A stretch of 35,064 bases of DNA from Dehalococcoidia bacterium (GTDB lineage: Bacteria; Chloroflexota; Dehalococcoidia; Dehalococcoidales; UBA1222). The notes below the pieces were generated by a model that was not told the DNA's origin, ran no database searches, and saw only the letters and a list, made by a program, of their open reading frames with translations. Both the position numbers and the translations under genes were made by a program. Numbering within the stretch: position 1 is the first letter of the stretch; every line of letters starts with the position of its first letter. Below, in pieces: positions 1-20,876 of the stretch. The DNA lies in contig QZJY01000010.1 of assembly GCA_003597995.1 (NCBI GenBank), positions 1 through 35,064 on the forward strand. Direction: 5' to 3'.

Positions 1-2710
1 ACGGAGTGCCAGAGGCATTCTGTACCTGAATGCTCATCATGGCAGAAACATTGCCAGCCATTCCTCCCTGGGCACCGGTGGTGAAGACAATCTTGTTGGG
101 AGGGGGCGTAGTCGCCGTCGTGGTCGGCGGCGTAGTCGGCGTGGTTACCGGTGTAGTCGTCGGCGGCGGCGTAGTCGTCGTTGTCGGCGGCGTAGTCGTC
201 GTTGTCGGCGGCGCAGTGATCACAGGCTGATAAATAATCAGATTATTGCCGATGTAGGTTAAGTTATAGTTGCCGCTTTCGCTGAAGAGGCCCACCAAAA
301 TCGGGTAGTAGCCCACCGCTTCACCGGCTACGCGAGTCAAGCTAAGAGTGTCGGAGCCGGCCAGGGAGCCGGAGGTGACAACATAGGTCAACGCCGGATC
401 GGTAGCGCCAACCACTTTAACTTGGGGATTAGCCGTTACCGTGATAGGCCTTGCGGTCACTGTATGGGACAATGGCGAACCAGTATTATCGCTGGCAGCA
501 AAACTAATATCTCCGGAGTAGAATGCCGTTATGGAATGAAGTCCGACATAGAGCCAGCCATTGGTAGGCCATGGTAAAGTTAAGCTAGCCACCCCGTTAC
601 TACCGGAAACACCGAGGAGAACCGGCGAGCCCATAGGACTAAGCCCATCCATAAATTGCACTGTTCCAGTTGGCGTAGGTGAACCGCCTGAAACAGTAGC
701 AGTGAACGTCACCGAATTTCCGTAGGTGGAAGGGGTACCACCCGAGATGACTACGGTGGATCCTGCCGGTCCAGTGAGCCAGGGTGCGTACGTAAGCACG
801 GTGAAGCCGTTGGTTAATATCGTTGCTCCGAGCCCCGGTCCGGAGCCATCAACGTTAGGTCCCGACGCGTCGCCCCACCAGTTGTAATCGAAGAGCAACG
901 TACCACTGGAATAGAGGAACAACGCGCCATAGGTATTGTTGACGAAGTTATTGTTGTGAGCCACAATGGTCCCACCACCTGGATTAGCCTCAACGCCTCG
1001 CGGATTGTTTTCGATGGTATTGCCCGTTATTGTGGCAATGGTACCGATACCACTGTTGATGTAGACAGAGCCATAAGTATTGTCGTGTATGTGGTTACGG
1101 GTAATCTGAGTGCCCGAAACGTTAGAATCTGTCAGGATACCATTGTAGGAGTTATATATTTCATTCCCCCGAATGACTACGTTGTTGTTACCATTCTGTA
1201 CACGGATACCGTTGGCAGACGGAATATTGTAAATCCTGTTGTTCTGAATTGTCTCAGTTCCGGAGGCACTCCCTGCATTTATGCCGTCATAGGTTGCACC
1301 ATTAATGGTGTTCCCATCAATATTGACATTAATTGAACCAAAGAACTCAATGGGCCTGACCGTGTCGGTCAAGGTGTTGTTGGTAATGATCAGACTGCCG
1401 TTATTATAAGCGGTAATGCCGCCGAACGCCTGCCCGGAAATGGTGTTGTTCGATATGGTGGTGGTGCCGGTAATGCCAGGAGGGCCGTCGAACTGCACCG
1501 CGCGCTGTCCGCCGGTGATGGTGTTATATCGGATAGTGTTACTGCCTGCGGCCACGTCAGCCTGCATGTAAATCGCATAGAGATTCGCTGTACCAGTTGT
1601 GGCCATCGTGATGATATTCCCGTTTGCCGGGGTTGCGCCCCCGATCATATTGCCCGTAGAAGTGTTGGCCAAACCAATCCCGACATCATCTGTTCCACCG
1701 GCGGGGCCGTTGATCGTGTTGCCGGATACTGTATTATTATCGGCGTCGTTTAAGCTGATAGCTCTTTTGATGTTGTTGGTCAGTACGTTGCCGGAGATGG
1801 TTACATCATGGGTACCCGGTTCAAGGTCGATGCCGTAGAAGTTGCCGTTGACGTTATTGCCGGTGACAGGTACCCCGGTGCATCCCCAGAGGACAATACC
1901 CCCGCCTGCCCACGGAGCAGAGCGCGTATGCCCGGTTACGGTATTGTTTGTCACAGCGCCGGCAGTGACTGTGTCTATACTGATGCCGTTTAACGGCGCG
2001 GCTGAGCCCGTGACGGTGTTGGCGTTGATAGTAACATTTGGATCAAGCCCTGAACCGTTGTGACGATTGATGCCGATCCCATCCCGCGTATAATCACTGA
2101 TGTCATTATCATTTAGTGTCAGGAGAGAATCGCCGTACACCACCACGCCAAAGCCTTCATAGTCCGGCGTAGCGGCAAAGTTGTGGATCGTGCTAGAGAA
2201 GAGGCCGGCCATCGTACCTCCGGCGTCTTTGACGTCGCGGAAGAACACCCCGTCCATCTGTCCGGTGCCCGCTGTTTTATTTTTTCCGTTCAGGTCGAGC
2301 GTAAAGCCCTGTATGCGAACGTCAATTGTGCCGCTGGAGGCGTATGCTGCGACGAGATAATCGTGAATGATCGTGTCCGAGGCGACCTGGGTGACCGAAC
2401 CTGTCCTTACGGCGGGGGCCTGTATAAATGTTGTCGCTTCTCCAGCGCCGATAATAGTAAGAGATTTTTGTATCAGTATTTGCTCGGTGTACGTCCCTGC
2501 CGCTACGTTGATGGTGTCGCCCCCGGCCGCCGTATCGACAGCGTGCTGGATAGTTAGCCAGGGTGAACCTGCGCTGCCAATATTGCTGTCGAGCCCGGTA
2601 GTGGCTACATAGTATGTATTTGCTGCCCCCATAACTGGCACGGCTGCAATAATACCTAAGCCAAGCAACAGCACCAAAGCGCACAGAAAGGTAAATTTAT
2701 GCTTTATCAC
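1..2710 (-). CDS. Secreted parallel beta-helix / Ig-like repeat protein (C-terminus beyond window)
   Basis: The frame is open without a stop for all 903 codons from a GTG at 2710 (after a GGGGGTGG ribosome site about 5 nt away) to the left edge, so the C-terminus is missing. In order: a Sec signal peptide (residues 1 to about 30, ending VMGAAN); a right-handed parallel beta-helix (about 31-620) built of many N-x-I/V-x-x-N-x-I-x-G coils, of the NosD/PbH1 type; an Ig-like domain (about 648-747); an MBG-like domain beginning ITVTANPQVKVVG (about 749-829); a Thr/Pro linker (830-869); and the start of a further Ig-like domain. Such proteins are exported and act as surface adhesins, polysaccharide-binding or S-layer-associated proteins; which applies here cannot be seen. 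A possible promoter is an extended -10 (TGCTATATT, minus strand, near 2814-2822), giving a leader of about 100 nt. Confidence 0.85.
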   Translation of the reverse strand, partial: MIKHKFTFLCALVLLLGLGIIAAVPVMGAANTYYVATTGLDSNIGSAGSPWLTIQHAVDTAAGGDTINVAAGTYTEQILIQKSLTIIGAGEATTFIQAPAVRTGSVTQVASDTIIHDYLVAAYASSGTIDVRIQGFTLDLNGKNKTAGTGQMDGVFFRDVKDAGGTMAGLFSSTIHNFAATPDYEGFGVVVYGDSLLTLNDNDISDYTRDGIGINRHNGSGLDPNVTINANTVTGSAAPLNGISIDTVTAGAVTNNTVTGHTRSAPWAGGGIVLWGCTGVPVTGNNVNGNFYGIDLEPGTHDVTISGNVLTNNIKRAISLNDADNNTVSGNTINGPAGGTDDVGIGLANTSTGNMIGGATPANGNIITMATTGTANLYAIYMQADVAAGSNTIRYNTITGGQRAVQFDGPPGITGTTTISNNTISGQAFGGITAYNNGSLIITNNTLTDTVRPIEFFGSINVNIDGNTINGATYDGINAGSASGTETIQNNRIYNIPSANGIRVQNGNNNVVIRGNEIYNSYNGILTDSNVSGTQITRNHIHDNTYGSVYINSGIGTIATITGNTIENNPRGVEANPGGGTIVAHNNNFVNNTYGALFLYSSGTLLFDYNWWGDASGPNVDGSGPGLGATILTNGFTVLTYAPWLTGPAGSTVVISGGTPSTYGNSVTFTATVSGGSPTPTGTVQFMDGLSPMGSPVLLGVSGSNGVASLTLPWPTNGWLYVGLHSITAFYSGDISFAASDNTGSPLSHTVTARPITVTANPQVKVVGATDPALTYVVTSGSLAGSDTLSLTRVAGEAVGYYPILVGLFSESGNYNLTYIGNNLIIYQPVITAPPTTTTTPPTTTTTPPPTTTPVTTPTTPPTTTATTPPPNKIVFTTGAQGGMAGNVSAMMSIQVQNASGTP
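105..222 (-). repeat. Thr/Pro-rich linker coding repeat
   Basis: This low-complexity DNA codes for a (T)n-P-P linker between the MBG-like domain and the terminal Ig-like domain of the beta-helix protein. It contains two exact tandem 21-bp units at 171-191 and 192-212, with degenerate copies before them. Such linkers space surface domains and often change length by slippage. Confidence 0.8.
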
Positions 2711-2888
2711 GATACCACCCCCTAGCACATCTTCGGTCTTTACGCTAAAGGTACACCCCTCGAATTCGAAAGTCAATATCCAAAAAGACCTCAATAGTTA
2801 TTTATTTAGGAGTAATATAGCACCAGCTTGATGAAGAAAAAAGATGCCGGTAATAATATTAAATAGGCTTTTTGGTTCAAAAGGAGGG

Positions 2889-2918
2889 GATGGCGGTCAA
2901 TGGATACTGCCCGCCATC
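2889..2918. repeat. Inverted repeat in intergenic region
   Basis: The arms GATGGCGG (2889-2896) and CCGCCATC (2911-2918) are perfect complements around a 14-nt loop. It lies between the beta-helix gene and the terminator of the small gene at 2986-3159. There is no clear U-tract, so its role is undecided. Confidence 0.45.
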
Positions 2919-2926
2919 AGTTGAAC

Positions 2927-2959
2927 AAAAAAAGAGACGGCTTGTGACTGCCGTCTCTT
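2927..2959 (-). terminator. Intrinsic terminator of the 57-aa protein gene
   Basis: Read on the minus strand, a perfect 10-bp stem (AAGAGACGGC / GCCGTCTCTT, 2932-2941 with 2950-2959) with an 8-nt loop is followed by a run of T residues (A-run 2927-2933 on plus). It lies 27 bp after the stop codon of the small gene. Confidence 0.85.
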
Positions 2960-2985
2960 GAACGTATACCCCCGGTCCGGGTTTC

Positions 2986-3159
2986 CTAGCGGACTCGTTT
3001 TTTAGTGTCGTTTGACTGTTCCCACAGGTCGACCAACTGGCAGATAAAGCCGTCGTAGCATTGCCCTGGCGCGCGGTTGCGGTCGAGCTTGTCCTTGGTG
3101 CTCTGTTTCACACCCACGGTGGTCCTGGTTTCATTCGATTTTTTCGTATTATTACCCAT
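2986..3159 (-). CDS. Small ribbon-helix-helix-like protein, 57 aa
   Basis: ATG at 3159 follows an AGGAGTG ribosome site 5 nt upstream (GAAAC spacer); the stop is TAG at 2988-2986. The sequence has a basic, polar N-terminus, then T-R-T-T-V-G-V-K-Q-S-T-K-D-K-L-D followed by Y-D-G-F-I-x-x-L-V-D-L-W. This strand-helix-helix pattern resembles the short RHH/VapB-like antitoxin or repressor families (T-T-I-x-V-x-x-x-T-K-x-x-L ... Y-D-x-x-I). Family assignment is by eye. No toxin gene is adjacent. It has its own strong promoter, a hairpin in its leader and its own terminator, so it is expressed alone. A DNA-binding, possibly autoregulatory role is inferred. Two cysteines (34 and 40) lie in the second half. 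Confidence 0.7.
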   Translation of the reverse strand: MGNNTKKSNETRTTVGVKQSTKDKLDRNRAPGQCYDGFICQLVDLWEQSNDTKKRVR

Positions 3160-3196
3160 GTTTCACTCCTGTCTTTTAGCTGGCACACCAAAACCC

Positions 3197-3216
3197 TGGC
3201 GCATTTTAGTGCGCCA
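3197..3216 (-). promoter_or_regulatory. Leader hairpin / possible operator of the 57-aa gene
   Basis: The perfect inverted repeat TGGCGCA-N6-TGCGCCA lies about 20-40 nt downstream of the predicted transcription start and 38 nt before the start codon. Its symmetry suits either an operator for a dimeric RHH protein or an RNA stem. Confidence 0.5.
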
Positions 3217-3241
3217 TCCGAATCACGATTGCATTTGCTGT

Positions 3242-3270
3242 ATTCTATATCAGGTATGAGCTTCTGTCAA
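3242..3270 (-). promoter_or_regulatory. Sigma-70-type promoter of the 57-aa gene
   Basis: The minus strand carries TTGACA (3270-3265), 17 bp, TAGAAT (3247-3242): a perfect -35 and a one-mismatch -10 at ideal spacing. The predicted start is near 3235, about 76 nt before the ATG. Confidence 0.8.
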
Positions 3271-3393
3271 TACTTATGAAGCTTTAGAAATAAGTTTTGT
3301 TGAGCCACGTGACAAAAGTTCCTTTTTCTTTACAGAGGCATGCTTTTTGGCTAAAATGGGAAGGTTGCATGGCATAATCCGGATTGAAAAACG

Positions 3394-5535: not shown

Positions 5536-6699
5536 TTATTGGATGCGCATGATAATAAGATGCGCTGTAACAGCAAGCGTTCCTCCCGCGTTCGGTGTAA
5601 TGGTTAACGCAGCGATATTGCCTGAAGGATTACGAACAGAGAGTTTGGAATTGACGGCTGTAGTAGTCACAAGACACATTCCTACAATCTGAGAGGTACC
5701 AGTTGCGCGACCAACTGCCGAATATGCTTGTTCAACAACTCCACTTCCCGAATCGAGACCTAAAACCAGTTGTCCCGCTTCGGCCACACTCACTTGAAAC
5801 ATGACCTGATAAACACCGATGACAGGCAACACAAATGAAGAATCAGGAGCCCCAACATCACGGATAATTACGTTATTCGTAGCTCCAGGTCGAGGAAATA
5901 GTACAGGAGCGCCAACTGCAATAGTCGCTGAGTTATCAGGGGGCATCAAAGCATAAAAATCAGAATAGTCCATGATGCCGCGCGGACCGGTTGCCCCGGT
6001 CGCGCCCGTTGCGCCAGTGGGGCCTGTAGCTCCCGTGGCACCTGTCGCCCCTGTTGGCCCGATGGGGCCCTGGGGTCCTGTTGCCAGTCCTGCATCAATA
6101 TCGGGTCCGGACGAAAGTGTAAGAATCAGATGCCCGCTGCCATTTATAGATGCGCCTGTAATGCTGACGCCCGTCGGTCCTGGAGCTCCTTGTGGGCCTT
6201 GTAAGCCTTGAGGACCTGGCGCTCCAGCCGGACCTGGCTCACCCTGAGGCCCTTGAGCGCCAGTTATAGCTCCAGCATCAATTTGTTGACCGGAAGAAAG
6301 AGTGAGTACTAAATGCCCACTGACCATTGTTGCTCCGGTAACGCTGACACCTGCCGGGCCCACAGAACCCTGAGAGCCCTGGGTTCCCTGGGCACCCGTT
6401 TGACCTTGCGCGCCTTGTGGTCCAGCGGAGCCTTGCGGCCCAGCGGGGCCTGTTGCACCCCTTTGACCCGTCGCTCCAGTCGGTCCAGGAACACCCTGAG
6501 GACCTTGTTGTCCAATTACCGATCCAGCATCGACGGTCTGGTCGTTCGTCAAGGTCAATATAAGGTGGCCATCAACAATGGCCCCGCTTTTAATGCCTAG
6601 CCCCGGGATACCGGATGGCCCGGTTGTGCAACCCAGCGGAATGAGCAAAACTAACACCAAAACCGAAATTATAGAAACGAGTTTGGCCAGCTTTTTCAT
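5536..6699 (-). CDS. Collagen-like (Gly-X-Y) surface lipoprotein with BclA-type C-terminal domain
   Basis: 387 residues after an excellent AAGGAGG site. The N-terminus is Lys-rich and hydrophobic and ends I-P-L-G-C24, a probable but imperfect lipobox. Three copies of a short beta module (G-H-L-I/V-L-T-L-[TS]-[NS] ... V/I-D-A-G) begin near residues 38, 122 and 184; each is followed by a Gly-X-Y tract rich in G-P-Q and G-A-T triplets. The last 145 residues (from M-D-Y-S-D-F-Y-A-L-M-P-P-D-N) match the jelly-roll C-terminal domain of Bacillus/Clostridium BclA/BclB-type collagen-like proteins (T-Y/V-Y-Q-V-M-F-Q-V-S-V, G-R-A-T-G-T-S-Q-I-V-G-M). Such proteins form trimeric surface filaments. It lies 40 nt after the CDGSH gene and could share its transcript. 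Confidence 0.88.
   Translation of the reverse strand: MKKLAKLVSIISVLVLVLLIPLGCTTGPSGIPGLGIKSGAIVDGHLILTLTNDQTVDAGSVIGQQGPQGVPGPTGATGQRGATGPAGPQGSAGPQGAQGQTGAQGTQGSQGSVGPAGVSVTGATMVSGHLVLTLSSGQQIDAGAITGAQGPQGEPGPAGAPGPQGLQGPQGAPGPTGVSITGASINGSGHLILTLSSGPDIDAGLATGPQGPIGPTGATGATGATGPTGATGATGATGPRGIMDYSDFYALMPPDNSATIAVGAPVLFPRPGATNNVIIRDVGAPDSSFVLPVIGVYQVMFQVSVAEAGQLVLGLDSGSGVVEQAYSAVGRATGTSQIVGMCLVTTTAVNSKLSVRNPSGNIAALTITPNAGGTLAVTAHLIIMRIQ
5970..6550 (-). repeat. Gly-X-Y collagen coding repeats
   Basis: Degenerate 9-bp-periodic DNA encodes three Gly-X-Y tracts in the lipoprotein, separated by two of the GHLxLTL beta modules. The densest part (about 5975-6065) is nearly pure G-A-T-G-A-T-G-P-T. 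Confidence 0.8.
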
Positions 6700-6739: not shown

Positions 6740-7408
6740 TTAATCTGCGTGGCTGCCGTCGCAAAAAGGCTTGTTCTTGGAACGCCCGCAGCGGCATAGC
6801 GTAACGCGGTTGCGTTTTTCATAGACCATGCCGCCTGCGGATTCGATGGGGATACCGCCGCGCACCAGTATGGGGCCGACCACGCCGGTTTCCGGGTCCT
6901 CCATAAGCCCGATGGAGGGTTCATACTCCGGTTCCTGCGGCTGGCCTTGCTTGTTCCAGACCACCAGGCGGCCTGAGGGGCAATCTTGCCCCTCTTCTAT
7001 GGCGATTTTTTTAGCCTCGGGGTTTTGGGAGTTTTCCACCAGACTCCAGGTTCCCGCGTCCCTGTCGCAGAAACCCGCTCCCACGCACAGCTCTTCGCAA
7101 TCGGTGAGCGAGAGCTCGGGGCCCTCTATCCTCCCGGCTTTTTTGAGATAAGGGGTGTTGTTGGCCGTTTCCGTGCCGTCGAAATTCACCCGGGTGTGAG
7201 TCCCGTCGCAGAAGGGCTTGTTTTTGGAGCGCCCGCAGCGGCAGAGGGCATAGATTTCCTGAGCGGGATATTGTTGGCTGGTGCGCCATTCCAGAGGGTC
7301 TCCCTTCGCATCGCTTACAATAATCTGCTTTGACAGCGGCACTGCGCCGGACACAATATAAGGGCCGTTTTTGGTCACTTTGATTCCGGGTTTCTTTCCA
7401 TCTGCCAT
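6740..7408 (-). CDS. Double-CDGSH iron-sulfur protein
   Basis: 222 residues. Two CDGSH motifs, C-R-C-G-R-S-K-N-K-P-F-C-D-G-[TS]-H, lie about residues 76-91 and near the C-terminus; each would bind one [2Fe-2S] cluster through three Cys and one His. Between them is a divergent ferredoxin-like segment (C-E-E-L-C-V-G-A-G-F-C ... D-C-P-S-G-R-L) of the kind found with CDGSH domains. A soluble redox or electron-transfer role is likely. ATG 7408 is preferred: the homologous-looking sequence begins M-A-D-G-K-K-P-G-I-K-V, a GGGGAGG lies 13 nt upstream (long spacing), and a TACAAT -10 candidate at 7446-7451 lies between it and the alternative ATG at 7474. Confidence 0.88.
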   Translation of the reverse strand: MADGKKPGIKVTKNGPYIVSGAVPLSKQIIVSDAKGDPLEWRTSQQYPAQEIYALCRCGRSKNKPFCDGTHTRVNFDGTETANNTPYLKKAGRIEGPELSLTDCEELCVGAGFCDRDAGTWSLVENSQNPEAKKIAIEEGQDCPSGRLVVWNKQGQPQEPEYEPSIGLMEDPETGVVGPILVRGGIPIESAGGMVYEKRNRVTLCRCGRSKNKPFCDGSHAD

Positions 7409-7474
7409 AGCATTTATCGGGCCTCCCCTTTCTCCAGTTTGCTTAATTGTAAGCACCGGACATGAAGAAGTCAT

Positions 7475-7689: not shown

Positions 7690-7725
7690 TACGGCTACTC
7701 TGTACCAAATGGATAAAACAATTTG

Positions 7726-9483
7726 GTGGTAGAAAATATAAGGGCGTTTCAGTATTATAAAATACTTGAGGTAAGCCGCCAGGCAACTCCACAAGAGATT
7801 ACCGCCTCATATCGCAAGCTAGCAAACCAATACCATCCAGACAAAAATCCAGATGCGAAAGCTCACGAACTTTTTAAAAAGATTAACCAAGCGTACCAAG
7901 TCATTAGCAACCCCAATTCAAGAGCTGAATACGATAAGAGCCCTGCCGAATGCCCAGATTGTTGGGCTTACGATGTTATCCAGACCAATTTTCCTTACTG
8001 GCGTTGCACGCATTGCGGATGCCAATTCAACCCTGCTGTTCCAAGCGATATAAAAAGATTTCATGATGTTGCTATTCCTGAAAAATTGCGTAAAAAGCTA
8101 GAGCTATTTTCTAGCACTCAATGCTCCTTCTGCCGAAAGTTCTACACACAACCTTTCCTTTGTCCTCAAGATAAACTCACTTCAAGCTGCATGAATATTG
8201 AAGAATTGTCCCAACCTGAAAGAGACGAAAGGTTAAGCGACGCAAAGTGGCATTGGCGTATGATGGATATGATAGACCAAGCGGCAGAGTATGGAATTTT
8301 GACTAGATGCCGCAATCCTCAATGTGGAGCTTTGAATCCAAGCCCAAAGGCGGTGAATTGCTGGCGTTGCAAGCAAAATTCGTTAAGTTGTCCATCCCCA
8401 GAATGTGAGGCTAAACCGTTTCTCAGGTACGATTTAGCTTCCGAAAAATGGAAATGCCCAAGCAATAGTTGCCGAAAAACGTTCGCTTTTGTGAAGCCAA
8501 CACAGGTTGAAAAGAGAGCAGATTTGGAATTGTCAGAAGAGGTTTGCCCACAAGATAAATCCAACCTGTATTTTGATAAGCTAGTTTTACTGTGGAAATG
8601 CAAAAAATGTGGTAGAACTTACACCCACCAAGAACTTCATCCAAAACCAAAGCAGGCTGATATAAATAATAATCCAGAAAACATCAAAAGAGAAAATCCT
8701 GTTCAGCCGCAGTCGGAATCCAAACCAAAACAAGAAACTAAAAGCGAACAACCACGACCAACAAGCCAACCTGTTCGGGAATCCGCTTATCGGAATGCCT
8801 TCTGCCCCAATTGCGGTCATGAAACTTACTTTGACGGCAATAAATGCCTTAGTTGCCACAAGGAATTCGCCAAACCTCCAAAACTGAAACCTCAATATAA
8901 ATCCAAGAAAAAGATAGCGCTATCCTACTCCTTCAAACGAAGTGTCAGAGACTTCTTTTTACGCTTGTATATTCTGGCTGTTGGTCTCATCGGTGCATTT
9001 ATTCTTTGGGTAGGTTTTCTGCCAGTATTGCAGAATCGCTCAAATCAGAGCATCTTCAAACTCTGGTGGAATGCTGTCTGGTCATTCGGTGATTTCAGCG
9101 ATTATGTGCGAGGCGTCGCTGTTGTGATTGCCACAGCCCTAATTGTTGGTGGTCTATTCGGAGTATTACTAGCTCCATTCAAACGCTATAGCGCAACCAG
9201 ATTTATATTCCTAGGCGGTATTGCTGGGTTGGCGCTTCTTGGAGCTCTTTGGGGTGGTCTGTTGGATGGGTCAGTGAAAGTACTGTTTGCCATGGGTTTT
9301 GGTGGGGCCAATGCGCTTCTTTATGATGGTTTATCTGGTGGAATACCCACTGCTTTTCATCATTCAATAAAAGTGATGCAGTTAATTGCAAAATATGGCT
9401 GGCTAAAGATTTCTCTGGCTGGCTTCGGAATTTGGTTTGTAGGTACTTTGCCCTTCTCAACGTGGTGGAGAAGGTTAAGATAA
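7726..9483 (+). CDS. Membrane-anchored J-domain protein with multiple zinc ribbons
   Basis: About 585 residues from GTG 7726 (an adjacent TTG at 7723 is also possible; neither has a Shine-Dalgarno). Residues 8-70 form a J domain (Y-Y-K-I-L-E-V, H-P-D at about 37-39, D-K-N-P-D-A, I-N-Q-A-Y). Next come at least five Cys-x2-Cys or Cys-x3-Cys knuckle pairs (about 76-300), a Pro/Gln/Lys-rich linker (about 305-360) and another zinc ribbon (F-C-P-N-C-G ... C-L-S-C-H). The last 180 residues hold four or five hydrophobic helices. The J domain should stimulate an Hsp70; the rest suggests a membrane-tethered adaptor or a zinc-ribbon scaffold. Base composition is clearly A+T-richer than in its neighbours, suggesting transfer. 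Its function is unknown. Confidence 0.85.
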   Translation: MVENIRAFQYYKILEVSRQATPQEITASYRKLANQYHPDKNPDAKAHELFKKINQAYQVISNPNSRAEYDKSPAECPDCWAYDVIQTNFPYWRCTHCGCQFNPAVPSDIKRFHDVAIPEKLRKKLELFSSTQCSFCRKFYTQPFLCPQDKLTSSCMNIEELSQPERDERLSDAKWHWRMMDMIDQAAEYGILTRCRNPQCGALNPSPKAVNCWRCKQNSLSCPSPECEAKPFLRYDLASEKWKCPSNSCRKTFAFVKPTQVEKRADLELSEEVCPQDKSNLYFDKLVLLWKCKKCGRTYTHQELHPKPKQADINNNPENIKRENPVQPQSESKPKQETKSEQPRPTSQPVRESAYRNAFCPNCGHETYFDGNKCLSCHKEFAKPPKLKPQYKSKKKIALSYSFKRSVRDFFLRLYILAVGLIGAFILWVGFLPVLQNRSNQSIFKLWWNAVWSFGDFSDYVRGVAVVIATALIVGGLFGVLLAPFKRYSATRFIFLGGIAGLALLGALWGGLLDGSVKVLFAMGFGGANALLYDGLSGGIPTAFHHSIKVMQLIAKYGWLKISLAGFGIWFVGTLPFSTWWRRLR

Positions 9484-10986: not shown

Positions 10987-12018
10987 ATGTGGCCGGTGGT
11001 AGGACACGAAACAGCGGTGGCCCGGCTCAAACGCAGTCTGGAGAAAGGCAAACTGGGACACGCCTATCTCATCAGCGGGCCGCCGCGCATGGGTAAGATG
11101 ACTCTGGCTCTCACGCTGGCCCAGGCGCTTAACTGCTCTTCTCCCGAAGCCCCCTGCGGCGTCTGTTCACAGTGTCAGAGGATTGCCTCTCTCTCCCATC
11201 CTGACGTCCAGGTGGTTGCCCTGGGTGCGGCTTCCTCTGACGATGAGGCGCGTTCGCGCACCGAGATAAGCATCAAGCAGGTACGCGAAGACATCCAGCA
11301 CTGGGCCAATCTGCCTCCCTTCGAGGGCGGGTACCGCGTTTTTATAATCGGCGAAGCCGAGCTGTTATCATCGGAAGCGGCCAACTGTTTACTCAAGACG
11401 CTCGAAGAGCCGCAGCCAAAGGTGCTTTTCATATTGCTTACCAGTGAACCGGCGCGGCTGCCGGAAACGGTCATATCGCGCTGCCAGAGGCTCGACCTCA
11501 AGCCCGTGGCGGCTGGAAAAATCGAAGGAGAGTTGCTGAAACAGGGCGCAGCCGCTGAAAAGGCGCGGCTGCTCGGCCGTCTGTGCCGGGGGCGGCCCGG
11601 TTGGGCTATGGCGGCAATAGCCGACGAAAGCCTGCTTGAACGCCGGGCGGAACGCATCGAGCGTCTTATCGATGTCACCTTGGGAAACTTTGAAACCCGC
11701 TTCGAATATGCCGGCGAGCTGTCGGCCAGGTTCAGCCAGAAACGCGACGAGGTGCAGGAAACGCTGCAAGAATGGATGTCTTTGTGGCGCGACATCCTGC
11801 TGGTCAAAGCGGGCCTCCCGGAGTCTATTACCAATCTGGACTACGCGGGCCGCTTGCAAACGCTGGCCGATGGATTTAACATAAGTCAGCTACGCGCCGC
11901 TATCGGTGCCATCGGCCTGGCCCGCAAACAACTCAGGCAGAACGCCAGCCCGCGCCTGGTGCTGGAGGTGCTCATACTGGATATGCCCGCGGCTCATAAA
12001 AAATTTGTCAAACCTTAG
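10987..12018 (+). CDS. holB: DNA polymerase III delta-prime subunit
   Basis: 343 residues from ATG 10987, with GGAGG 7 nt upstream. This AAA+ clamp-loader subunit works with DnaX and HolA to load the sliding clamp. Visible: H-A-Y-L-I-S-G-P-P-R-M-G-K-M-T (Walker A), the zinc module C-(x7)-C-x2-C-x2-C of the DnaX/HolB group, a degenerate Walker B followed by A-N-C-L-L-K-T-L-E-E-P, and the sensor I region L-L-T-S-E-P-x-R-L-P-E-T-V-I-S-R-C-Q. The C-terminal helical collar is present. The gene is immediately followed by ricT, an order also known from Firmicutes. Confidence 0.93.
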   Translation: MWPVVGHETAVARLKRSLEKGKLGHAYLISGPPRMGKMTLALTLAQALNCSSPEAPCGVCSQCQRIASLSHPDVQVVALGAASSDDEARSRTEISIKQVREDIQHWANLPPFEGGYRVFIIGEAELLSSEAANCLLKTLEEPQPKVLFILLTSEPARLPETVISRCQRLDLKPVAAGKIEGELLKQGAAAEKARLLGRLCRGRPGWAMAAIADESLLERRAERIERLIDVTLGNFETRFEYAGELSARFSQKRDEVQETLQEWMSLWRDILLVKAGLPESITNLDYAGRLQTLADGFNISQLRAAIGAIGLARKQLRQNASPRLVLEVLILDMPAAHKKFVKP

Positions 12019-12027
12019 GGAGATAAT

Positions 12028-13044
12028 ATGGCAGAAATCGTTGGAGTGCGCTTCCGCAAAAGCGGCCGGGTATACCATTTCGATCCGGCCGGCATGGAGC
12101 TCAAGCTGGGCGATAACGTGGTGGTAGAAACTTCGAGCGGCCTGGGGCTGGGACGCGCGGTGGTCTTTACCACCACCGAGGCCGCGGGGGAACTGGCCGG
12201 GCCACTCAAGCCGGTGGTACGACTCGCGACTCCCGAGGATATCGAGAGAGCCAGCCGCCTGTGCGGCAAAGAGAAAGAAGCCCTCGACGAGACAGTGCGT
12301 CTGGTGGCTAAACTCGGGCTGCCCATGAAGCTTATCTCGGCTGAGTATAACCTCGATGCCTCACACCTCACCATTTTTTTCAGCGCAGAGGGACGGGTCG
12401 ATTTTCGCGAGCTGGTGCGTGAGCTCAGCCATAACCTCAAGGTGCGCGTGGAGCTGCGCCAGGTCGGGCCGCGCGACGAGACCAAGCTGCTGGGCGGTTT
12501 CGGGCGCTGCGGGCGTGAGCACTGCTGCGCCACTTTTCTGGACGAGTTTTCCCCGGTCTCCATCAAAATGGCCAAGGTGCAGGACCTGCCCCTCAACCCC
12601 ATGAAAATCTCGGGAGTTTGCGGGCGTCTGCTGTGCTGCCTGGGCTATGAATGCGAACAGTACCGCGCCATCAAGGAAAAGATGCCGCGCGAAGGCCAGC
12701 GCGTTATGACAGAAGCCGGCCCTGCCGTGGTGGTGGGTCACAATACCCTGGAAGAGAACATCCTGGTAGAGTATGAGACCGGCGTAAGATTGGAAGTACC
12801 GGCGGCCAAGGTAAAGCTGATACCCTTCGAGCCCCGTCCTCAGCCCGCGAGGCCCGCAGCTCAACAGACAACTTCAACGGAGGTCAGGCCTGTGGAGATA
12901 CCTGAAGCCGCTTCGCAGGTGGAACCGGAGGCATCCTCTCAACCAGCCAATCCGAATGGAGAAAAAGCCTCCGAAGTCGAGGCTCCAATGGCAGAAGAAA
13001 AATCGACTGAACTATCAGATGAGGCGAACCCGGGTGTTCTTTAG
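12028..13044 (+). CDS. ricT: PSP1-domain protein, RicT (YaaT) family
   Basis: 338 residues from ATG 12028 behind AGGGAGA. The PSP1 core covers about residues 1-225 and includes seven clustered cysteines (C161, C166, C167, C198, C203, C204, C209), within G-F-G-R-C-G-R-E-H-C-C and G-V-C-G-R-L-L-C-C-L. In Bacillus the family member RicT joins RicA and RicF in an Fe-S-containing complex that affects RNase Y-dependent RNA maturation; whether that holds here is inferred. The last 70 or so residues are Pro/Glu/Ala-rich and probably disordered. The stop codon interleaves with that of the convergent HNH gene (4-bp overlap, TTAG). Confidence 0.9.
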   Translation: MAEIVGVRFRKSGRVYHFDPAGMELKLGDNVVVETSSGLGLGRAVVFTTTEAAGELAGPLKPVVRLATPEDIERASRLCGKEKEALDETVRLVAKLGLPMKLISAEYNLDASHLTIFFSAEGRVDFRELVRELSHNLKVRVELRQVGPRDETKLLGGFGRCGREHCCATFLDEFSPVSIKMAKVQDLPLNPMKISGVCGRLLCCLGYECEQYRAIKEKMPREGQRVMTEAGPAVVVGHNTLEENILVEYETGVRLEVPAAKVKLIPFEPRPQPARPAAQQTTSTEVRPVEIPEAASQVEPEASSQPANPNGEKASEVEAPMAEEKSTELSDEANPGVL

Positions 13045-14088: not shown

Positions 14089-14310
14089 TCAGGGCTTTTC
14101 TTTTAGTTTACGCATTGCCTGATTGATGCTCTCGAAAGACTGGCTGAGCTTTTTTGTCTCTTCGGGGCTCGGTTTGGGGTCGGGTTTCATGTGGATGACT
14201 TTCTTGCAGGCGGGGCAGGTTACCGATTCCTCCCTCGCTATCTGGCTGAGCATCACATTCATGGCTGCATCGCAATCAGGGCAGTGAATTTCTATCTCTA
14301 AATCGCTCAA
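14089..14310 (-). CDS. Small zinc-ribbon protein, 73 aa
   Basis: Starts at TTG 14310 with AAAGG upstream. Two Cys-x2-Cys knuckles (C10/C13 in H-C-P-D-C and C32/C35 in T-C-P-A-C-K) should bind one zinc ion. A charged helical tail (K-L-S-Q-S-F-E-S-I-N-Q-A-M-R-K-L-K) follows. It is a cytoplasmic nucleic-acid- or protein-binding module of unknown role. The absence of overlap with other genes and the clean zinc pattern support it as a real gene. Confidence 0.7.
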   Translation of the reverse strand: MSDLEIEIHCPDCDAAMNVMLSQIAREESVTCPACKKVIHMKPDPKPSPEETKKLSQSFESINQAMRKLKEKP

Positions 14311-16012: not shown

Positions 16013-16021
16013 GAGGTGTTT

Positions 16022-16303
16022 ATGACCAAGCGAGCGTCAGACGTGGTAATCCGTCCCAAGCGACAGGTTACGCTGCCCTCGGAGCTGTGCGACCGGCTGG
16101 GGATTGCCCCGGGCGATGTCCTCGAATTTTCAATCGAAGGTTCCGCTCTGATAGCCAGGCCGAGGAAGCTGGCGGCTCTAACCTCCCTGCGGGAAATCCA
16201 GCGGGCATTCAAGGCATCCGGCGTTTCCGAAGAAGACTTGCAGCAAGCAGGGAGACGCGTAAGGCAGCAAATAGCACGGGAGCGCTATGGCACTCGCGCC
16301 TGA
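16022..16303 (+). CDS. AbrB/SpoVT-type antitoxin
   Basis: 93 residues from ATG 16022 (GGAGG 5 nt upstream; GTG 16016 overlaps that site). The N-terminal swapped-hairpin motif R-x-x-D-V-V-I-R-P-K-R-Q-V-T-L-P and L-G-I-A-P-G-D-V-L-E-F is typical of AbrB/MazE-type DNA-binding domains. The C-terminal half (S-L-R-E-I-Q-R-A-F ... R-R-V-R-Q-Q-I-A-R-E-R-Y-G) should bind the toxin. The gene overlaps the PIN toxin by 17 nt, an order and coupling typical of type II pairs. The large inverted repeat before it is the likely operator. Confidence 0.9.
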   Translation: MTKRASDVVIRPKRQVTLPSELCDRLGIAPGDVLEFSIEGSALIARPRKLAALTSLREIQRAFKASGVSEEDLQQAGRRVRQQIARERYGTRA

Positions 16304-16730
16304 AACACGCGTTTTCCTCGATACCAACGTTATCTTTTCCGGGCTTTATTCGCACGGTGGAGCGCCCGGTGTTATTATCGAAGCATTTGTTAAAGGCGAA
16401 ATAAAGGCGGTTATATCGCAGCAGGTGCTTGAGGAACTGGTGCGCACCGTCAAGGAAAAACTCCCGGTGGTAATACCTGTCTTGAAGGCCATGCTTGTAA
16501 ATTCACCGCCCGAAATAGTTCCCGACCCATCGGCGGCGGAAATCAAGACTTGGGCCAGTCTCTTGGAAGCGGGCGATGCGGCTATCCTGGCGGCGGTAAT
16601 TTCATCGCGGGCAGACTACTTTGTCACGGGGGATAATCATTTTTTCGAGAACCGCGACGTTATCAAAAAAGCAGGAATCAGCATCCTCACTCCGGCGCAA
16701 TTTATAGCCAGGATGGGCAAGCAGAAGTAA
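16287..16730 (+). CDS. PIN-domain toxin (COG1569-like family)
   Basis: 147 residues. PIN ribonuclease motifs: V-F-L-D12-T-N-V-I-F-S-G-L near the N-terminus, a Glu in V-L-E-E-L, and the acidic cluster G-D-A-A-I-L-A-A plus V-T-G-D-N-H-F. These residues coordinate Mg2+ for RNA cleavage in the family. The sequence matches the 'putative toxin component, PIN family' that accompanies AbrB-type antitoxins rather than the VapC/VapB type. The ATG overlaps the antitoxin gene by 17 nt with no separate promoter, so the two are translated together. Full length, with no sign of decay. Confidence 0.9.
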   Translation: MALAPETRVFLDTNVIFSGLYSHGGAPGVIIEAFVKGEIKAVISQQVLEELVRTVKEKLPVVIPVLKAMLVNSPPEIVPDPSAAEIKTWASLLEAGDAAILAAVISSRADYFVTGDNHFFENRDVIKKAGISILTPAQFIARMGKQK

Positions 16731-16743
16731 TCACCTTCGGATA

Positions 16744-16772
16744 TTGACACATCGGGCTTAATCCTTTACAGT
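16744..16772 (+). promoter_or_regulatory. Promoter of the Hsp70-SBD protein, leaderless
   Basis: TTGACA (16744-16749), 17 bp, TACAGT (16767-16772). Exactly 7 nt separate the -10 from ATG 16780, so the predicted first nucleotide is the start codon. No ribosome site is present. Confidence 0.7.
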
Positions 16773-16779
16773 TTTCCTT

Positions 16780-17247
16780 ATGACAGTCAATTCTAAATGG
16801 TCGCTGGGTTTTGCCTCTCGCAGCGGGGATTTTATAGCCGTCATCCCTAAAGGCAGCCATCTGCCGGCGCGCCGCAGCGTGACCGTTACGACAGCAGTGG
16901 ATGCGCAGCCGAATATGAAACTGTCGATATATATGGGAGAAAGCAGCAAGGCCGAAGACAATTATCCTCTTAGCAACATTCGCCTCGAATGTTTTGAAAA
17001 AGGCGCCGCCGGTGTCCCGCGCATAAAGCTCACTTTCTATGCTTACGAGCATAGCGTTTTTCGAATCGGCGTGTGTTATAAGGAAGGGGAGCCGGAGCAG
17101 GATATCAGCATCATCCCCGCCACCGGTCTTTCGGAAGAATATATGAACCGGATGCGTGAAATGGTTAACAAGATGACTTCTCAGGCTATATCGCAGGAAG
17201 TCGGCGGCCCCGACCTCGGCGTGGTAACGCTGTCTGTGGTTGTGTAG
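16780..17247 (+). CDS. Free-standing Hsp70-like substrate-binding domain
   Basis: 155 residues that align by eye with the beta-sandwich substrate-binding domain of DnaK and the start of its lid: W-S-L-G (DnaK L-S-L-G), a loop ending I-P-K-G-S-H-L-P-A-R-R-S (N-T-T-I-P-T-K-x-S), D-A-Q-P-N-M-K-L-S-I-Y-M-G-E (D-N-Q-x-x-V-x-I-x-V-L-Q-G-E), A-E-D-N-Y-P-L (A-A-D-N-K-x-L), G-V-P-R-I-K-L-T-F-Y (G-x-P-Q-I-E-V-T-F-D) and I-S-I-I-P-A-T-G-L-S-E-E. The 44-kDa actin-like ATPase domain is absent and no ATPase gene is adjacent. It could bind exposed hydrophobic peptides without nucleotide control; this is inferred. Single-gene transcript. Confidence 0.8.
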   Translation: MTVNSKWSLGFASRSGDFIAVIPKGSHLPARRSVTVTTAVDAQPNMKLSIYMGESSKAEDNYPLSNIRLECFEKGAAGVPRIKLTFYAYEHSVFRIGVCYKEGEPEQDISIIPATGLSEEYMNRMREMVNKMTSQAISQEVGGPDLGVVTLSVVV

Positions 17248-17269: not shown

Positions 17270-17460
17270 GTGCTATGTAGCCTGAGTGAGGAGTAACATA
17301 ATTGAGTTGACCTCTTCCCCAACCCGTCTCTCCCCTTCGTAAGGGGAGATTAAGAGGGATTTGTGAGTTTGGATTCTATGAGAATCCCCCTTTTCCAAAG
17401 GGGGAAAATAAAACAGCCTCTCCCGTCAAGGGAGAGATATTATTATTGCCTCTGCCTGTG
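17270..17460. repeat. Intergenic cluster of three perfect hairpins
   Basis: This gene-free gap contains TCTCCCCTT-cgt-AAGGGGAGA (17329-17349), CCCCCTTT-tcc-AAAGGGGG (17386-17404) and CTCTCCC-gtcaa-GGGAGAG (17418-17436). The third is nearly identical to a hairpin at about 21620-21640. It lies between convergent genes and may end transcription from both sides, but no U-tract is obvious. Confidence 0.6.
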
Positions 17461-17462
17461 GC

Positions 17463-18881
17463 TTATTCCCCCCTCGTCCCCCGTCCCCTCTTCACATACG
17501 GTCTTTTCACCGGTCCGTTGGCGCGTATATCCGTGCGGTAGTCGGGCGCCATGATGGCAAACGGCGTGCTCATCTTGTGGTCGGCCAGGCGCGAGCTTAT
17601 GCGGCCTTCCAGTTCCTCCAGAGCCCGGCTGGTGGTTATCACGGTGGGAAGCTGCGCGTTGTAGCGGTAGTTTATTACCTGGTACAGTTTTTCCTGCGCC
17701 CATTGTGTCGTACTCTGCTCACCGAAGTCGTCCAGCACCAGCAGCGGCGTGGTCTTGACGCGCTCGAACATCTGGTCGTAGGTCACCTTGCTTTCGGGTG
17801 AGAAGGTGGAGCGCAGGTGGTCCAGAAACTCCGGCACCACCACAAACATGGCCGGTTTTCTGGCCTGGTAGCGGAAGTTGACAATGGCCGCCGCCAGGTG
17901 CGTCTTGCCGCAGCCGGTGGCCCCCTGGAAAACGAGCCATCCCTCCGGTGACTTGGCGAATTCGAGCGCCAGGCGGTAGGCCCTCTCGAGGTTGTCCTGT
18001 TGCTCCTGCGGCAGGTTGACGCGTTTATAATCAAAGCTGGCGAAGGTCATGCTCTTTTGCAACTCAAGCCCCGGCCCCCAGTTATAGTCCGCTTCTCCTG
18101 TATCCTCTTCTAATGAGAAGATTTGACATAACTTTGCGTCACTCAGGCGGCTGCGCAGCCTTTCGTCCATCTCGGCCAGGGGTTTCTCGGTCGTGATAAC
18201 GGTGGGAAGTTCATGGCTGAAACGGTGGTTCAAAAGCTGGTCGAGCTTCTCCTGCGCCCAGGGCGTACCGAACTGCATTCCCAGGTCGTCGAGGATTAAA
18301 AGCGGCGTGTTGCGTACCTGGTCGAAGAGGCGGTCGTAGGTCGTCTCGCTCTCGGGGTTGAAGGCGGCGCGCAGGTGGTCCAGCAGGTCGGCGGTGGTGA
18401 TGAAAAAGACGGGTGCGTCGCGCCCGATGCGCTCGTTGGCGATGGCGGCCGTCAGATGTGTCTTGCCGCTGCCGGTAGGGCCGATGAAAACGAGCCATCC
18501 GGCCGGTTCGGCGGCGAATTTCCTGGCGGCATCGTATGCCGCGCTGAAGCGCTGCTGGCTGGCGCTGGCGCCGTTTCTGCCCTGCGGCGACAGCTTGTCG
18601 AAGGTGAGGTTTCTGAGCGCTCCCAGGTTGGAGTACTCCTCCAGCCGCAGGCGGCGCTTGCCTTCCTCGGCCTTTTTACCGCATTTGCACGGGACGGCGT
18701 TGCGGTAGTCCGTCGCGCCGTCTGGCAGCAAAGGATGCACGAAGCCGGCCCCTCTGCACAGAGGGCAGATATCGCCCTTTCCCGCCTTTGACCCCGTCTT
18801 AGCGCTGGATGAGGTGGCCGTAGGGGCCGCGGATGTATTTGTCGGGGTCTTCTTTTTGATTATCTCGCCGATGCGTTCCAT
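17463..18881 (-). CDS. Tandem-AAA+ DnaC/IstB-like helicase loader
   Basis: 472 residues from ATG 18881. An N-terminal low-complexity segment (about 1-35) is followed by a zinc knuckle (C39, C42, C65, C67) and two complete AAA+ modules. Module 1: Walker A G-P-T-G-S-G-K-T (134-141), Walker B L-L-I-L-D-D (194-199), arginine segment R-L-R-S-R-L. Module 2: G-A-T-G-C-G-K-T (320-327), L-L-V-L-D-D (380-385), R-I-S-S-R-L. Single-module DnaC/DnaI proteins load DnaB; here the duplication is within one chain. The gene follows dnaB and dnaD, with which it overlaps by 83 nt, so a loader role is well supported by context. The C-terminus is basic. Confidence 0.88.
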   Translation of the reverse strand: MERIGEIIKKKTPTNTSAAPTATSSSAKTGSKAGKGDICPLCRGAGFVHPLLPDGATDYRNAVPCKCGKKAEEGKRRLRLEEYSNLGALRNLTFDKLSPQGRNGASASQQRFSAAYDAARKFAAEPAGWLVFIGPTGSGKTHLTAAIANERIGRDAPVFFITTADLLDHLRAAFNPESETTYDRLFDQVRNTPLLILDDLGMQFGTPWAQEKLDQLLNHRFSHELPTVITTEKPLAEMDERLRSRLSDAKLCQIFSLEEDTGEADYNWGPGLELQKSMTFASFDYKRVNLPQEQQDNLERAYRLALEFAKSPEGWLVFQGATGCGKTHLAAAIVNFRYQARKPAMFVVVPEFLDHLRSTFSPESKVTYDQMFERVKTTPLLVLDDFGEQSTTQWAQEKLYQVINYRYNAQLPTVITTSRALEELEGRISSRLADHKMSTPFAIMAPDYRTDIRANGPVKRPYVKRGRGTRGE

Positions 18882-19506
18882 CTTTCTTACCTTCGGTCGT
18901 CCAGCGCTCCAGTATGCGCGCAATATAGCGCCAGTTGCGTTTGTTGGCATCCACCGCTTCGCGGACTGCGTCCCGTATCCACTCTTCAGGGTACTGGGTC
19001 AGCGCGTCCTTGATTTCCTCGGCTATCATGGGCGTCAACATGCCGATGTTCTCTTCGTAGAGGCTGAAGACGTCCTTCTGCTCGGTGGGCGTGACGGCGG
19101 GCCTGACAGCCTCCATCTTCGGCAGCTTCAGTTCGCCGCTTTTAATACGCTCAACCGCCTCGCGGTCGCTGGCCGTGTTGAGGAAATAAAGGCTCTCCTG
19201 TTTGCCGTCGAGGGTGACCGCGAGCGATATAATAGCCCCTCGCTTGACGGCCGACTCCAGCGCCGTCTTAATATTTTCTTCTCCGCTCTTCCCCTCGTGC
19301 TGTAAACTGGCGGTGAGAGAGGGGTTGGACAGGAGTTCGCTGAGCGTGGCGAAGCGCGGCGTCCCTTTCTTGCCGTATATCGTCTGGAAGATATACAGCA
19401 TGGTCTTAAGCTCGGGGTTGTCCATCCCCGGCATGAGCATGTTCATAAAGAGGTTTGGGATGGGGGTGAACTGCATGTTGGCCGGAAAGCCGCCGAAGGA
19501 TTTCAT
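18799..19506 (-). CDS. dnaD: DnaD-domain replication-initiation protein
   Basis: 235 residues; its ATG overlaps the dnaB stop (ATGA). The N-terminal part (to about 120) is a winged-helix-like domain with P-E-L-K-T-M-L-Y-I-F-Q-T-I-Y-G-K-K-G. The C-terminal DnaB_2 domain includes F-S-L-Y-E-E-N-I-G-M-L-T-P and the W-R-Y-I-A-R-I-L-E-R-W motif, ending D-P-D-K-Y-I-R-G-P-Y-G-H-L. In Firmicutes DnaD acts with DnaA, DnaB and DnaI in primosome assembly. Position between dnaB and the loader supports the same role here. Confidence 0.9.
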   Translation of the reverse strand: MKSFGGFPANMQFTPIPNLFMNMLMPGMDNPELKTMLYIFQTIYGKKGTPRFATLSELLSNPSLTASLQHEGKSGEENIKTALESAVKRGAIISLAVTLDGKQESLYFLNTASDREAVERIKSGELKLPKMEAVRPAVTPTEQKDVFSLYEENIGMLTPMIAEEIKDALTQYPEEWIRDAVREAVDANKRNWRYIARILERWTTEGKKDGTHRRDNQKEDPDKYIRGPYGHLIQR

Positions 19507-20876
19507 AGCAGCTGCGGCTCCGCGTTGGAGAGGTTCTCGAACTTGGTGAGGGAGTTCTTGAAGCGCACCTTCACCTGGCCGATAGGCCCGTTCCTATGCT
19601 TGGCTACGATGATGTCGGCCATCTCTCGCGGGTACTCCTGGTCGGCGTGGTCGCGCGCCCATTCGTCTTCGGTCTTGTAGTACACTTCATCGCGGTAGAT
19701 GAATATCACGATATCGGCATCCTGTTCGATGGAGCCCGATTCGCGCAGGTCGGATAGCTGCGGCAGGTGCGAGGTGCGGCCTTCCACGGCGCGCGATAGC
19801 TGAGAAACAGCGATGAGCGGCACATTGAGTTCCCTGGACAGCGCCTTGAGGGCGCGGGTGATGTTGGAAAGCTCCTGCACGCGGTTTTCCATGCGGCCTT
19901 CGCTCTGCAGGAGCTGCAGGTAGTCCAGTATGATGAGGTCGAGCGGGCGCTCATAATGCAGGCGGCGCGCTTTGCTGCGCATTTCCACCACCCGCAGCAT
20001 GGGCGAATCGTCGATATAAATGGCGGCGGTTGACAGCTTGCCCTGCGCCTCCATGATGGCGCGTTCCTCTTCCTCCGTATTCAGCCCCAGCCGCATATGC
20101 TTGGAGTTGACCTCGGCTTCGCTGGCGAGCAGGCGTTGCACCAGCGACTCGCGCGACATCTCCAGGCTAAAGAGGGCCACGCAAGCCCCCTGCTCCAGTG
20201 CCGCGTTGCGCGCGATGTTCAAGGCGAGCGAAGTCTTGCCCATGCTGGGGCGCCCGGCCAGTATGATGAGGTCGGAACGCTGCAGCCCGCCCAGCAGCTC
20301 GTCCAGCCCGCGAAATCCGGAGTAGATGTGCGGCAGGCGCTGCAGCACGCCCGCTTCGGGCGGAGGGGGTACCTCGAAATACTTGTCTAGGATGTTCTTT
20401 ATAGGCACGAAGTCCAGCTGCCCGCGCTCGGTGCGCAGCCGGAAGAGCACGTCCTCGGCCCTGTTGAGCGTAGAGGCGATGTCAGGGTCGGCGTCATAGC
20501 CCATCACCGATATTCTGTCGGCGGCGGAGATAAGCTGGCGCATGATGGACAGGCGGTAAACTATCTGGGCGTAGTGCTCGATATCGAGCGAGGTCGGCAC
20601 GATGGAGATGAGGTGGTTCAGGTAGGCCGCCCCACCCACCTTGTCGAGCTGCCCCAGCCGCTCGAGTTCCTGGGCTATGGTTATCTGGTCGATGGCCTCG
20701 TCGCGGTGATACAGCGAAAGCGCCGCCTGGTAAATCCAGCGGTTGGCCTCGGAATTGAAGTCCTCCGGGCGCAGCAGCACGGCCACCTGATAAACGCTCT
20801 TGCCGTCGATTAAAAGCGAGCCGTTGACGGCTTCTTCGGCGTCTATATCGTGAGGCGGCAGCCTGTCGTTAGCCAC
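19503..20876 (-). CDS. dnaB: Replicative DNA helicase
   Basis: 457 residues from GTG 20876 (GAGGAG 7 nt upstream, inside rplI). The N-terminal helical DnaB_N domain begins P-P-H-D-I-D-A-E-E-A-V-N-G-S-L-L; the RecA-like motor has Walker A G-R-P-S-M-G-K-T-S (208-216), L-F-S-L-E-M, D-Y-L-Q-L (Walker B) and Q-L-S-R-A-V-E-x-R. It forms the hexameric 5'-3' helicase at the fork. It follows rplI by 1 nt and overlaps dnaD by 4 nt. No intein is present. Confidence 0.97.
   Translation of the reverse strand: MANDRLPPHDIDAEEAVNGSLLIDGKSVYQVAVLLRPEDFNSEANRWIYQAALSLYHRDEAIDQITIAQELERLGQLDKVGGAAYLNHLISIVPTSLDIEHYAQIVYRLSIMRQLISAADRISVMGYDADPDIASTLNRAEDVLFRLRTERGQLDFVPIKNILDKYFEVPPPPEAGVLQRLPHIYSGFRGLDELLGGLQRSDLIILAGRPSMGKTSLALNIARNAALEQGACVALFSLEMSRESLVQRLLASEAEVNSKHMRLGLNTEEEERAIMEAQGKLSTAAIYIDDSPMLRVVEMRSKARRLHYERPLDLIILDYLQLLQSEGRMENRVQELSNITRALKALSRELNVPLIAVSQLSRAVEGRTSHLPQLSDLRESGSIEQDADIVIFIYRDEVYYKTEDEWARDHADQEYPREMADIIVAKHRNGPIGQVKVRFKNSLTKFENLSNAEPQLL

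Follow-up and report, generated by a model that had tools for sequence, protein, structure and literature searches.

Hsp70 is commonly described as an inseparable machine made of an ATPase and a substrate-binding domain (SBD). What, then, is the nature of a gene that encodes only the second of these parts, and what could its product do? The DNA analysed here, 35,064 nucleotides long and referred to as the window, corresponds to positions 1–35,064 of contig QZJY01000010.1 from the Dehalococcoidia bacterium assembly GCA_003597995.1. At positions 16780–17247 of its forward strand, an open reading frame (ORF) running from ATG to TAG encodes a stand-alone Hsp70 SBD protein of 155 amino acids, with orthologues in five other genomes. 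A natural and conserved SBD-only protein existing beside an intact dnaK offers a direct test of the abilities of an SBD without ATP. In open-access papers on stand-alone or truncated Hsp70s and SBDs, no description of a natural SBD-only protein was found. The reading favoured here, which has about an even chance of being correct, is that of a self-capped module, serving for peptide binding or as an adaptor independently of ATP, with its own tail predicted to lie in its groove and a partner plausibly encoded next door.

Domain identity and gene structure

The identity of the 155-aa protein as an SBD is secure. With hmmscan, the protein matches the Pfam family PF00012 (HSP70) with an E-value of 5.4e-13 and 48.5 bits for a cut-off of 20.6, and the match is confined to positions 393–520 of the 599 positions of the profile, in agreement with the sequence-only reading of an Hsp70 SBD devoid of ATPase. 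The DnaK models of NCBIfam match the same SBD part (E ~1e-15), and the best PDB sequence matches are Kar2/BiP, DnaK and Hsc70, each as an isolated SBD. Modelling by AlphaFold2 with the six family sequences gave a pLDDT of 77.5, and the addition of 35 dnaK SBDs gave a pLDDT of 88.1 with a pTM of 0.82. The structure prediction proposed as a check of the assignment thus resembles Hsp70 SBDs, with Z-scores of 16–17 in VIA-align, notably for human Hsp70 SBD 4wv5 (Z 16.8, rmsd 2.0 Å, 117 residues) and DnaK 7kzu (Z 16.7, rmsd 2.5 Å, 128 residues); among the structural matches listed, the others are likewise Hsp70 SBDs.

The substrate-binding β-sandwich of Hsp70/DnaK is present (residues 7–117, positions 16798–17130, +) and aligns with residues 397–507 of E. 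coli DnaK. The full α-helical lid is absent, and a single lid helix is seen in the AlphaFold2 models (residues 119–135, positions 17134–17184, +). The actin-fold nucleotide-binding domain (NBD) is absent from the protein, all six orthologues being 153–172 aa long, and no NBD is encoded upstream, as had been claimed: the preceding genes are a MazE/PIN toxin–antitoxin pair and an α/β hydrolase. The MazE-like/PIN pair (16016–16730, +), located just upstream of the SBD gene, is apparently a local insertion.

The claim that the gene has its own promoter is also supported. A promoter-like TTGACA-17-TACAGT site (16744–16772, +) ends 7 nt 5′ of the ATG, and such a short distance implies a leaderless mRNA. 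Comparable sites matching at 10 of 12 positions precede the aligned SBD starts by 8 nt in G001, 9 nt in G004 and 26 nt in G005, so that four genomes out of six, the window's included, show a promoter-like site belonging to the SBD gene; in G001, translation probably begins at Met 11 within the listed ORF. As judged from these motifs, the putative promoter is conserved in at least three genomes, and its position suggests leaderless translation in three. Downstream, a bidirectional terminator-like hairpin (17418–17436) separates the SBD gene from a convergent helicase-loader gene.

Distribution, locus and history

The SBD-only gene was found in six genomes (G000, G001, G002, G004, G005 and G006), which represent four of the five genera sampled in a single small Dehalococcoidia family of uncultured bacteria. 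The orthologues are 69% to 27% identical to the window protein, the lowest value being that of G006. G001 (Dehalococcoidia MAG KR_bin-3015) is a sister genome of the same genus as the window and the sole match in a scan of genome contigs. Between the window and G001, the gene displays a dN of 0.21 for a saturated dS (2.8), and therefore appears to be under purifying selection. Outside the carrier family, no stand-alone SBD was found among 156 genomes of the order, where the other matches above threshold are dnaK frames. At the level of the class (393 genomes sampled) and of the phylum (400 sampled), the same family members were the only ones returned, again with dnaK frames for the rest above threshold, at a strict cut-off of 1e-23 by which very divergent stand-alone copies could be missed.

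In viral contigs, no stand-alone SBD copy was found. Several candidates were discarded: a 194-codon frame in G071 lies at a contig end and is probably a dnaK fragment; the plasmid proteins, among the matches listed, are annotated as dnaK; the two phage loci inspected carry frames of 643 and 627 aa; and a Lak phage match belongs to a dnaK whose N-terminal part lies upstream. The dnaK of this Lak-C1 phage (L103, 30–3283) appears split into an N-terminal part (30–440) and a remainder (1946–3283), and the 356-aa ORF between them (TAG read as Gln) is what an intron-borne endonuclease would give.

A search of Dehalococcoidia genomes for conserved stand-alone copies beside dnaK, envisaged in the sequence-only reading, was positive, since a full dnaK is present in four of the six carrier genomes, that of G002 being in two pieces at contig ends. 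In G005, two full dnaK of equal score and frame length (666 aa) occur on contigs C16 and C33, by duplication or as an assembly duplicate. No dnaK was detected in the 77%-complete G004 nor in the window's own assembly, where the SBD gene is the sole match of an HSP70 search. A true absence of dnaK from the organism is not accepted; an assembly or binning gap is most likely, because the 17-kb region that surrounds dnaK in the sister genome is also undetected as a whole in the 95.5%-complete assembly, as is any GrpE, while G001, of the same genus, has dnaK.

The six carriers share a common locus, in which lysA, holB and PSP1/RicT precede the SBD gene, itself convergent with the genes of a helicase loader, a DnaD-like protein and DnaB. 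In the window, the conserved neighbours are a HolB-type DNA polymerase III δ′ subunit (10987–12018, +), a PSP1-domain (RicT/YaaT-like) protein (12028–13044, +), a DnaC/IstB-like helicase loader of 495 aa (17463–18950, −), a DnaD/DnaB_2-like protein (18799–19506, −) and the replicative helicase DnaB (19503–20876, −). Wherever the contig of a carrier includes the loader, the SBD gene lies between PSP1 and this convergent gene; the G004 contig stops close to the SBD gene, on the side away from PSP1. The SBD gene starts 9 nt after PSP1 on the same strand in G002 and G006, and other genes, including the MazE/PIN pair, separate the two in the window. Elsewhere in the order these neighbours recur without an SBD gene, usually as lysA-holB-PSP1 and then HNH, helicase loader, DnaD-like and DnaB genes. 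In genus g3, the genes for PSP1, a small zinc-ribbon protein and the loader are present and the SBD gene is absent.

In a tree of PSP1 and HolB, which represents two linked genes and not a full species tree, the carrier family is monophyletic (support 100) and the non-carrier g3 is nested within it, where it forms the sister group of the window's genus (support 99, with 95 at the next node). Because of this nesting, the simplest history would be one gain and one loss, and the loss in g3 would make the gene dispensable. The gene itself is real and vertically inherited.

Other features of the region deserve mention. The helicase loader carries a tandem pair of DnaC/IstB-type P-loop modules (GPTGSGKTH and GATGCGKTH), and its relatives in the order adjoin HNH and PSP1. 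A 73-aa zinc-ribbon-like protein (14089–14310, −) is conserved beside PSP1 in G001 and genus g3. Farther away, one gene encodes collagen-like repeats with a weak BclA_C match (5536–6699, −), and another two CDGSH iron-binding domains with a divergent 4Fe-4S domain (6740–7474, −). Finally, the gene at 7723–9483 (+) encodes a protein with a J-domain (residues 10–71), several pairs of cysteines resembling those of zinc ribbons, and hydrophobic segments at the C-terminal end. The link once drawn between this membrane J-domain gene and the SBD gene found no support and is rejected on locus evidence: the J-domain gene has no counterpart at the G001 locus, where lysA adjoins the gene of a 233-aa ORF with no J gene between them. 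The two genes are probably unrelated.

Proposed self-capping and its alternatives

The six SBD proteins were compared with E. coli DnaK and with 35 dnaK of the order. The hydrophobic pocket of the groove is retained, positions 401, 426, 436, 438 and 472 (DnaK numbering) being hydrophobic in all six proteins, and Q433, T428 and P419 are invariant. In contrast, the arch residue 404, L or M in the 35 dnaK, has been replaced by R, H, H, G, P or A in the SBD proteins (Arg14 in the window, codon 16819–16821, +, for Met404 of DnaK), and both E402 and G405 are lost. All six proteins end in a hydrophobic-[VI]-[TSP]-[LVI] motif (VVTL, TVSL, MVTV, IIPL, IIPL and FIPI), with T at the first position in G001. 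In the window protein, this C-terminal hydrophobic segment (VVTLS/VTLSV region, residues 148–152, positions 17221–17235, +) is predicted to occupy the substrate groove.

This predicted location is derived from models and structural alignments. Residues 148–151/152 form a strand in both AlphaFold2 models, obtained with different alignments, with a pLDDT of ~85 in the better one. The alignments skip the lid and reach residues 152–153 where the Hsp70 chain itself carries a substrate or an extra tail (7kzi, aligned to residue 628; 7kzu, to 550; 5e85, to 652; rmsd 2.0–2.5 Å); they stop near residues 113–117 for chains with a separate peptide molecule (1dkx, 4ezy and 4r5i). Residue 541 of 552 is the last of 7kzu to match the DnaK sequence; structurally, the alignment continues to residue 550. 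In 7kzi, 7kzu and 5e85, judging by entry titles, the fused peptide presumably sits in the groove. The position of the tail is thus derived from aligned residue ranges of a predicted model, and AlphaFold2 may have learned it from self-bound SBD truncations present in the PDB. Such truncations provide a precedent, as the SBDs of lid-truncated DnaK and Hsc70 bind their own unfolded C-terminal region (PMC7294093). Given the strand in both models, the alignment ranges and this precedent, the conserved tail, of VVTLS or IIPLP type, is predicted to lie where Hsp70 binds its substrate and most likely fills the groove at rest.

The mechanism suggested by these features would be the following. The starting point is an Hsp70 SBD from which the ATPase and the interdomain linker have disappeared and of whose lid little is left, with a groove that keeps its hydrophobic pocket and lacks the arch by which DnaK clamps its substrates. 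At rest, its own C-terminal tail would occupy the groove and replace the ATP-controlled closure of the lid; for a sticky groove that has neither ATP nor a lid at its disposal, closure by a tethered tail would be the most economical. A partner of higher affinity could exchange with the tail, and the SBD, once its tail is displaced, would engage this dedicated partner in an ATP-free manner. By their position, the PSP1/RicT protein and the helicase loader are candidates, and the fixed place of the gene between holB-PSP1 and the helicase-loading genes makes them concrete ones. A tentative lead is that RicT of Bacillus subtilis is part of the RNase Y specificity complex, which is important in heat shock (PMC13230545). 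However, an adjoining gene need not be the partner, given the promoter-like site in four of the six genomes and the intervening genes in the window. Both the conditional character of the binding and the partner are what we infer from a family in which six sequences exist, that of G006 being only 27% identical to the window protein. A more specific version, namely a self-capped switch in which the tail is swapped for a specific client of RicT/PSP1 or of the helicase-loading machinery, and which would control RNA processing or the initiation of replication without ATP, is decidedly doubtful.

Other readings were considered. In one of them, rather unlikely, the tail fills the groove permanently and the domain is a structural scaffold offering a protein–protein surface, for instance to PSP1/RicT; the lost arch, the conserved tail and the direct adjacency of PSP1 and SBD genes in two genomes would fit, but the hydrophobic pocket and invariant Gln433 have been kept, although a self-bound tail would explain both. 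The second is that of an open holdase or DnaK competitor, in which a free SBD would bind, independently of ATP, the hydrophobic segments that unfolded proteins expose, in line with the proposal of the sequence-only reading. The SBD fold, the retained pocket and the intact dnaK of four relatives speak for it. However, this proposal is weakened because the arch residue is lost in all six proteins and a conserved tail is predicted in the groove; moreover, the lid is almost gone, and a general chaperone needs neither one fixed replication/RNA locus nor so narrow a distribution. A freely open holdase is therefore possible but unlikely, and less likely than the self-capped module.

A third reading, very improbable, has the SBD dock in trans on the ATPase domain of DnaK or on another actin-fold ATPase. 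Among the NBD-contact positions listed for the DnaK SBD (PMC8910936), some are retained and others changed: Pro419 is invariant and Lys occupies position 414 in all six proteins, but N415, D477, D479 (replaced by Tyr or Phe) and mostly G482 are altered. The earlier idea of a module recruited by an ATPase thus loses ground, because the interdomain linker DVLLLD is missing from all six proteins and several contact positions differ; in addition, no actin-fold ATPase was found among the scanned neighbour genes. As for a decaying dnaK fragment or a spurious ORF, a reading suggested by the short length and by the lack of a detected dnaK in the window's own genome, its probability is negligible, as the sequence-only reading had also held, since a short gene kept at one locus in six genomes under purifying selection with a conserved putative promoter rules out a broken dnaK or pseudogene, and the antisense ORF that overlaps it has no match in syntenic loci.

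Comparison with known systems

STCH/HSPA13 is a natural one-domain derivative of Hsp70 that keeps the ATPase without the SBD, and thus represents the opposite half to the window protein. With the SBD of DnaK/Hsp70 (C-terminal part of PF00012), the window protein shares the β-sandwich, the hydrophobic groove pocket and the first lid helix, but it lacks the ATPase, the linker and the arch residue, and it has a truncated lid and an added conserved tail. The self-capped reading brings it closest to the engineered lid-truncated SBDs of DnaK and Hsc70 (PMC7294093), likewise SBD-only and about 150–180 aa long with a C-terminal segment in the groove (here predicted); these, however, are laboratory truncations, whereas the window contains a natural gene with a conserved and different tail. 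The predicted self-bound tail, if true, would be the natural counterpart of this self-binding. A further parallel is human Hsp70 modified by S-glutathionylation, whose unfolded lid imitates a substrate and blocks the site (PMC7294093). In both cases a C-terminal segment would serve as an intramolecular substrate mimic (as predicted for the window protein), but glutathionylation is a reversible modification of a full Hsp70, whereas the window protein is devoid of ATPase.
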